64,000 bases of DNA from Halobaculum halobium (GTDB taxonomy: Archaea > Halobacteriota > Halobacteria > Halobacteriales > Haloferacaceae), in contig NZ_CP126158.1 of NCBI RefSeq assembly GCF_030127145.1, forward strand, positions 806,001 through 870,000, given 5' to 3'. A model generated the notes under the pieces. That model did not search any database. It was not told where the DNA came from and saw nothing but the letters and a program-made list of their open reading frames with translations. A program made the translations under genes and the position numbers. Shown piece after piece: positions 31,405 to 32,377 of the stretch (position 1 is the stretch's first letter; every line of letters starts with the position of its first letter).

Positions 31405-31944
31405 TCAGGACAGCTGGGCCGCCAGGTCCGCTTCCGTGATGATCCCGACGGCGTCGCCCCCGTCGGTGACGACGACCGCCTTGTAGTGCTCCAGCAGGTT
31501 CCGGATCTCGTCGACGGTCGCGTCCGGGCTCACCGGCGGGAACGACTCCGACATCACCTCGCTGACCGGGAGCTCGGCGGCGTCCTCGCCGGCCTGGTTC
31601 ACGTCCGAGAAGGAGATCGACCCGACGGGCGTCCCGTTCTGGATCACCGGAAGCTGCGAGTACGCCTCCTCCTCCATCAGGTCGACTGCCTCGCGCACGG
31701 AATCGTCCGGGGCGACGCTGATCACCGACTCGTGCATGATGTCGCGGGCCCGCACGACGCCCCCCTCGACCTCGTCGAGCGCCTCGACGATGCGCCGGAG
31801 CGTCGACAGGCGCGGGTCCACGTCTCCGCCCTCGATGCGGGCGATCAAGGGCTGGGACACGTCCGCGCGCTCGGCGAGCGCGCTCTGGGTCAGATCGAGC
31901 GACGTCCGCCGCTCGCGAAGGTCCTGCGGCGTCGGGAGTTCCAT
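31405..31944 (-). CDS. HTH-CBS transcriptional regulator
   Basis: A 179-residue protein with an XRE-type helix-turn-helix (LTQSALAERADVSQPLIARI, residues about 19-38) followed by two CBS domains (about 65-120, MHESVISVAPDDSVREAV; and 126-179, MSESFPPVSPDATVDEI). CBS pairs usually sense adenylate nucleotides or ions, so DNA binding is probably ligand-controlled. A perfect 7+3+7 palindrome lies 8-24 bases before the start codon, strongly suggesting autoregulation. Confidence 0.92.
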   Translation of the reverse strand: MELPTPQDLRERRTSLDLTQSALAERADVSQPLIARIEGGDVDPRLSTLRRIVEALDEVEGGVVRARDIMHESVISVAPDDSVREAVDLMEEEAYSQLPVIQNGTPVGSISFSDVNQAGEDAAELPVSEVMSESFPPVSPDATVDEIRNLLEHYKAVVVTDGGDAVGIITEADLAAQLS

Positions 31945-31951
31945 ACCGAGG

Positions 31952-31968
31952 AATTACCCGAGGTAATT
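31952..31968 (-). promoter_or_regulatory. Palindromic operator at the HTH-CBS promoter
   Basis: AATTACC-CGA-GGTAATT is a perfect inverted repeat of 7-base arms. On the minus strand it overlaps the TATA-like run CTTTTTAATTACC (31974-31962) and ends 8 bases before the ATG, so a bound dimer would block initiation. The same bases also contain two adjacent 11-base near-direct copies ending CCTCGG. Confidence 0.75.
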
Positions 31969-32014
31969 AAAAAGGGTTCGGTCGCGCTCGTGAGCGACGA
32001 CTTCCGAGACGGCC

Positions 32015-32377
32015 TTACTCGTCCTCGTCGTCGGCTTCCGTCTCGATGATGTCGATAACGTCGAGCGGCACGTCGCGGAGGGCGCCGCCGATCTCGCTTT
32101 TCGCGATCCGGGTGGCGTGTTCCTCGCTGTCGGCGTTGAACACCTCGATCTCAAGCATCAGTCCGACCAGGGCGGTCGAAGCCGCGATGAACGCCGAGTC
32201 GAACGGCTCTCCGCAGGCGGGACACGGCGTCGCGCCCACCTCGACGTCGACGAACTCCTTGTTCGCCTCGTTGAGTCGGCGCCCAGCCTCGCTGACGGCG
32301 ACACCGATCGCGTCGTCGATCGCCTCCACGTCTCGAACCAACCAGGCCGCCTCCAGCGCGACGAGATAGTTGCTCAT
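32015..32377 (-). CDS. UPF0212/DUF555 family protein
   Basis: A 120-residue conserved archaeal protein starting SNYLVALEAAWLVRDV. A CPACG pair near residue 52 may be half of a zinc site, which would then need a dimer. The C-terminal half has IAKSEIGGALRDVPLDVIDI and ends in an acidic tail. No function is known. ATG 32377 has a TTATTG box 24-29 bases upstream on the minus strand; upstream in-frame residues are basic and not family-like. Confidence 0.9.
   Translation of the reverse strand: MSNYLVALEAAWLVRDVEAIDDAIGVAVSEAGRRLNEANKEFVDVEVGATPCPACGEPFDSAFIAASTALVGLMLEIEVFNADSEEHATRIAKSEIGGALRDVPLDVIDIIETEADDEDE

Follow-up and report, generated by a model that had tools for sequence, protein, structure and literature searches.

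A conserved operator of a probable, previously unrecognised archaeal regulator of S-adenosylmethionine supply

The regulator gene and its palindrome

The window, a stretch of 64,000 nucleotides from the Halobaculum halobium genome, contains a gene for a putative transcription factor with a palindrome immediately ahead of its start codon (Table 1). The gene product had been described, from its letters, as a DNA-binding protein with two CBS domains, and the domain searches agree, with E-values of 9e-11 for HTH_3 and 5.9e-26 for CBS. HTH_3 (PF01381) scores 42.1 bits against a curated cut-off of 23, which places the protein in the XRE/HTH_3 class, and the only HTH families that it matches are HTH_3-like. 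The CBS family (PF00571) is matched in two stretches with 91 bits, i.e., a CBS pair or Bateman module, and the second repeat ends in G-I-I-T-x-A-D. Residues 29-50 of the HTH are invariant among 30 haloarchaeal orthologues. The AF2 model of the protein has a pLDDT of 91 and aligns to CBS pairs with Z of 15-17 across 106-136 residues. One full-length copy is present in the window's genome, and the gene is single-copy in 184 of the 247 genomes of the phylum.

At 71 of 80 haloarchaeal loci the gene immediately upstream, on the same strand, is DUF555/UPF0212, and at 75 of them this gene occurs somewhere in the locus. The DnaJ neighbour is kept in just 3 of the 80 loci, so a tie between the regulator and a chaperone cluster was dropped.

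The palindrome is an exact 7+3+7 inverted repeat and was found at precisely the place given in the original prediction. Its proposed rarity holds in part: the window has 30 perfect 7+3+7 repeats, as well as 207 inverted repeats with 7-bp arms and spacers of 0-8 bp, but this is the sole perfect one with AT-rich arms. No match to the 17-mer within three mismatches occurred in 100 dinucleotide shuffles. The gap between palindrome and ATG is 7 bases, not 8 as had been stated, and the overlap with the TATA-like box is present, though its extent is just 2 bp. This box lies about 23-29 bases ahead of the ATG. Given that distance, the usual archaeal spacing and the closeness of the start codon to the operator, the transcript of the regulator gene is probably leaderless.

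Table 1. Features of the regulator locus (positions in the window)
Feature	Position	Strand	Basis or remark
HTH_3 + CBS-CBS regulator gene, 179 aa	31405..31944	-	start codon 7 bp past the operator
HTH_3 DNA-binding domain, residues 9-57	31774..31920	-	domain match
CBS pair, about residues 66-178, presumed adenosyl-ligand sensor	31411..31749	-	domain match
Operator palindrome AATTACC-CGA-GGTAATT (minus-strand reading AATTACC-TCG-GGTAATT)	31952..31968	-	sequence and orthologue conservation
Conserved operator core ATWAC-N5-GTWAT	31953-31967	-	orthologue promoters
TATA-like box TTTTTAA	31967..31973	-	overlaps operator by 2 bp
BRE-like CGAACCC	31974-31980		next to TATA-like box; read from sequence
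DUF555/UPF0212 gene	32015..32377	-	directly upstream of regulator gene; genomic context

Conservation of the operator at the regulator's own promoter

We gathered 80 haloarchaeal orthologues (L016-L095, which carry real organism names) by protein similarity, independently of the DNA site. The labels Natrialbaceae-like (f11), Methanosarcinaceae-like (f13) and Archaeoglobus-like (f15/f33), which are used below, are inferred from sequence. An alignment of this promoter among related haloarchaea had been set as a test of the original prediction, and the palindrome passed it. It is kept with the protein in 80 of 81 promoters, window included, with the best operator site at -23, -24 or -25. The exception, L089, has an 8/10 version at the expected position and a better-scoring copy 18 bp upstream. 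A further operator-like copy, 18 bp ahead of the main site, is present at five Halorarius-type loci (L076, L080, L082, L088 and L089), where it takes the place of the usual CGAAA-nC-TTTT promoter.

The consensus from the haloarchaeal orthologue promoters is ATWACYNNNRGTWAT. Nearly all core positions are invariant among the 65 distinct sites, the weakest being kept in 63, and the TTTT and CGAAA columns are also conserved in the alignment. Operator scores are at least 19.6 in 80 of the 81 real upstream sequences, and the 99th percentile of the best scores in shuffled upstream sequences is 1.1. The exact core is present in all 145 genomes of the order, with 260 sites in total compared with 71 for the reversed-pattern control. 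Outside the haloarchaea, 24 of 39 orthologue promoters, mostly methanogen-type, have a 9/10 or 10/10 core at -18 to -22, and one further promoter has the core at -49. Among these 39, the core is missing from three f19 promoters, one f20 promoter and six Archaeoglobus-like ones, and the operator is also missing from L266, L275 and L280.

One arm position of the operator accepts A or T among relatives (ATAAC or ATTAC). Because of this tolerance, we consider that the half-site is what is conserved and that the perfect symmetry is incidental. A rival reading takes the palindrome for an RNA hairpin, or for the terminator of DUF555, an idea that draws on the position of the inverted repeat beside a T-run and between two same-strand genes. 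In 28 of the 65 distinct sites one arm pair (columns 4/14) is mismatched; the 37 complementary cases compare with 35 expected, i.e., no covariation. Since the tolerant positions do not covary, they point to a protein that reads DNA half-sites, and the hairpin was rejected for this reason; the site also lies upstream of the presumed leaderless transcript. The distance to the ATG is fixed even where no DUF555 gene was detected at the locus (L047, L048, L068, L072 and L079) and in methanogen-type genomes too, and a hairpin or terminator is very improbable. The 30 perfect repeats in the window could be taken to mean that the palindrome arose by chance. However, its sequence and position are conserved throughout the order and in the majority of methanogen-type orthologues, so chance is already ruled out by conservation and its probability is negligible.

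In archaeal promoters, a site downstream of the TATA box is the usual position for a repressor and an upstream site that for an activator. At the regulator's own gene, the conserved operator overlaps the core promoter, as the site of an autoregulated repressor does. The layout for autorepression that had been proposed is therefore borne out as far as position goes, the site lying between TATA and start, and its conservation supports autoregulation. Thus, the comparative evidence strongly supports the view that the palindrome is an autoregulatory operator, to which the HTH-CBS protein would bind.

Sites at genes of homocysteine and S-adenosylmethionine supply

The 17-mer had been offered as a motif with which to search for the whole regulon. 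In the window's own genome it added no exact site. The exact core ATWAC-N5-GTWAT occurs once in 3.46 Mb, and the scan with at most one mismatch found 29 core matches, no excess over the reversed control (30). This genome therefore lacks a large regulon of perfect sites, and the idea of a larger one was rejected. A two-mismatch operator site was found at C1:1270811. The search worked through relatives, where sites lie before the regulator gene, the S-adenosylmethionine (SAM) synthetase gene and methionine-pathway genes, the pattern of a SAM/methionine regulon.

The archaeal SAM synthetase, MAT, belongs to PF01941. In all seven Natrialbaceae-like genomes of the batch that was read out, an exact extra site lies about 67 bp before the MAT ATG. 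We read 57 haloarchaeal MAT promoters and aligned 55 of them on the TATA element. At one TATA-relative offset, 40 of the 55 have a site of at least 7/10, including 26 of at least 8/10 and 10 exact ones; elsewhere, outside the core promoter, no offset has more than five sites of at least 7/10. The MAT promoter of the window's genome reads ATACT-TCCGG-GTAAT there (8/10). The MAT site is degenerate in most haloarchaea, often to ATWAC...GCAT, and is weak or unrecognisable in some haloarchaeal lineages and in most Methanomicrobiales-like genomes. Of 10 MAT promoters from Methanosarcinaceae-like genomes, 7 carry an exact site within 250 bp upstream, about 24-34 bases ahead of the point where the likely TATA box ends. 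Thus, MAT has the operator upstream of TATA, whereas the regulator gene has it downstream. The position at MAT could serve repression too.

At the TATA position of the haloarchaeal MAT genes (e.g., L189, L159-L188 and L190-L208) there is a nearly invariant 15-bp element, TTTCCGCAAGTTATA, which is conserved beyond an ordinary BRE/TATA. In one haloarchaeal genus (f9/g25; L177, L182, L184 and L194), both half-sites at MAT have drifted, giving ATGCGTAGCGCGCAT-like forms, and these sites are a natural test of operator drift.

The other group of sites is found at homocysteine synthesis. HcyBio-CBS (PF01837 plus CBS domains) is the COG1900a enzyme, an L-aspartate semialdehyde sulfurtransferase that forms homocysteine. 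A scan of four Methanosarcinaceae-like genomes gave exact sites ahead of HcyBio-CBS in three of them. When HcyBio promoters were collected from 12 genomes, nine had an exact site and two more a 9/10 site. Most of these sites lie 60-71 bp ahead of the start and directly adjoin the TATA box. The chance of an exact site in a 350-bp upstream region is about 1 in 900, based on 37 sites in about 11.5 Mb of the four genomes. The MMP16 paralogues, which belong to the same Pfam family and serve coenzyme M synthesis, were used as a control: none of 11 promoters has an exact site and one has a 9/10 site, with too little upstream sequence at the twelfth locus. The regulator gene is 5-9 kb from HcyBio in five genomes, and in one Methanosarcinaceae-like genome a site lies 102 bp before a Cys/Met-metabolism PLP enzyme.

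Some of these promoters may hold a second site. The TTTCCGCAAGTTATA element of MAT itself matches the operator at 7-8/10 and lies 31 bp away from the upstream site. At HcyBio promoters the top offset for a second site is +31, though this is a small number of cases (4 of 11), and in one genome (G308, L349:1501-1546) two exact operators are exactly 31 bp apart with no clear downstream gene. No second site at 31 bp was found at the regulator's own promoter. The spacing equals three helical turns and hints at cooperative binding at the enzyme genes, but in the MAT case this signal is confounded with the core promoter.

The exact extra sites of the other haloarchaeal genomes, outside the regulator and MAT, have no recurring target. 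In one methanogen-type genome (G215), sites lie near corrinoid/URO-D methyltransferase genes (L339, L340 and L343); these genes were set aside as conserved targets. In two Methanosarcinaceae-like genomes (L319 and L322), an exact site lies between fae, for the formaldehyde-activating enzyme, and a divergent HxlR-type regulator gene, 50 bp from the latter.

Proposed mechanism and significance

The simplest reading of this pattern would be feedback control of the supply of homocysteine and SAM by the regulator. We put a probability of about 0.75 on an ancient HTH-CBS regulator that autoregulates and controls this supply, with SAM or a related metabolite as the probable ligand of its CBS pair. 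From conservation, site position, target genes and the paralogue control, all of which are observed, we infer binding, the ligand and the direction of control. We suggest that the protein may be an ancient, single-copy transcription factor of the phylum that includes the haloarchaea and several methanogen groups, an XRE-type HTH with a CBS pair, and that its dimer would read a pair of ATWAC half-sites separated by 5 bp. At the regulator gene, binding between TATA and the start codon would block TFB/RNA polymerase and cause repression. At MAT, the predicted site is some 30-40 bp ahead of the TATA box, and binding there would be of the activator type; at Methanosarcinaceae-like HcyBio genes the predicted site, abutting the TATA box, would be in a repressor position. 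A feedback loop on SAM supply would be closed by the CBS pair, which has SAM or a related compound (MTA or SAH) as its probable ligand. The full scheme, in which a phylum-wide, SAM-sensing factor represses its own gene and homocysteine synthesis, activates MAT and uses paired 31-bp sites at the enzyme genes, is more tentative, and we rate it somewhat below even odds.

A narrower reading is that the operator serves autoregulation only, the sites at MAT and HcyBio being either core promoter elements or targets of a different regulator whose half-site is similar. The uniqueness of the exact core in the window's genome fits this, as do the degeneracy of most haloarchaeal MAT sites and the fact that the invariant BRE/TATA TTTCCGCAAGTTATA forms part of the MAT signal. 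Yet exact MAT sites occur in two distant groups, the haloarchaea and the Methanosarcinaceae-like genomes, with similar TATA spacing; sites are found at HcyBio and not at its paralogues; and all the target genes are in one pathway. We therefore regard autoregulation alone as improbable. The ligand is a closer question. The original prediction proposed AMP/ATP or similar ligands, and the regulator might sense adenylate charge or c-di-AMP, with the SAM genes merely being ATP-consuming targets. Such sensing is common among CBS pairs, and the top fold matches to the AF2 model include AMP/ADP-bound AcuB and c-di-AMP/AMP-bound DarB. But AMP-, ADP-, c-di-AMP- and SAM-binding CBS pairs match the model about equally, and the SAM/MTA-bound CBS pair of MJ0100 falls no more than about 1.3 in Z below the best one. 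In addition, the conserved targets are specific to methionine/SAM, and among the extra sites that were read no energy-metabolism gene was seen with a shared conserved site. Because of the target genes, AMP/ATP is less likely than SAM or MTA, and adenylate or c-di-AMP sensing as a whole is less likely than not. SAM, MTA or SAH is favoured since the CBS pair sits on a predicted regulator of the pathway in which the homocysteine-forming enzyme has a CBS pair reported to respond to SAM.

Several known systems share parts of this design. The bacterial CcpN / EF1025 group also joins an HTH to two CBS domains, and it reportedly acts in carbon metabolism, or with DivIVA and in cell shape, in Firmicutes. 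TrmB of haloarchaea can repress or activate depending on the position of its site relative to the promoter; it offers a parallel of one haloarchaeal regulator with site position setting the sign of control, as proposed here, but is sugar-sensing, with a different fold family and targets. The CBS domain of the COG1900a enzyme (MJ0100 / MA1821 type) has been reported to enable allosteric control by SAM (PMC12068725), and PDB titles record the MJ0100 CBS pair with MTA and SAM (3kpb, 3kpc, 3kpd). This is a CBS pair in the same pathway, but those proteins are enzymes that do not bind DNA, whereas our candidate couples such a pair with an HTH and has the enzyme gene as a predicted target. In Proteobacteria, the SahR / SamR regulons cover SAM and methionine genes including metK (PMC4239095). 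Like our candidate, they have an autoregulated palindromic operator and a SAM/methionine regulon inferred by the same comparative method. Unlike them, our candidate has an HTH_3 (XRE type) fused to a CBS pair, a different motif, and as predicted targets the archaeal-type MAT and HcyBio. The new part is thus a methionine/SAM regulator of different architecture in a different domain of life.

A literature search, which was not exhaustive, returned no study of archaeal transcriptional control of SAM supply and none of this HTH-CBS family. The protein is probably an unrecognised archaeal regulator of the supply of SAM, the cell's main methyl donor. The analysis yields one single-copy regulator together with its operator, plus two or three predicted target genes, in groups that have working genetics (Methanosarcina and the haloarchaea). 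Such a regulator would add a direct DNA-binding role to the CBS domains in methionine metabolism.
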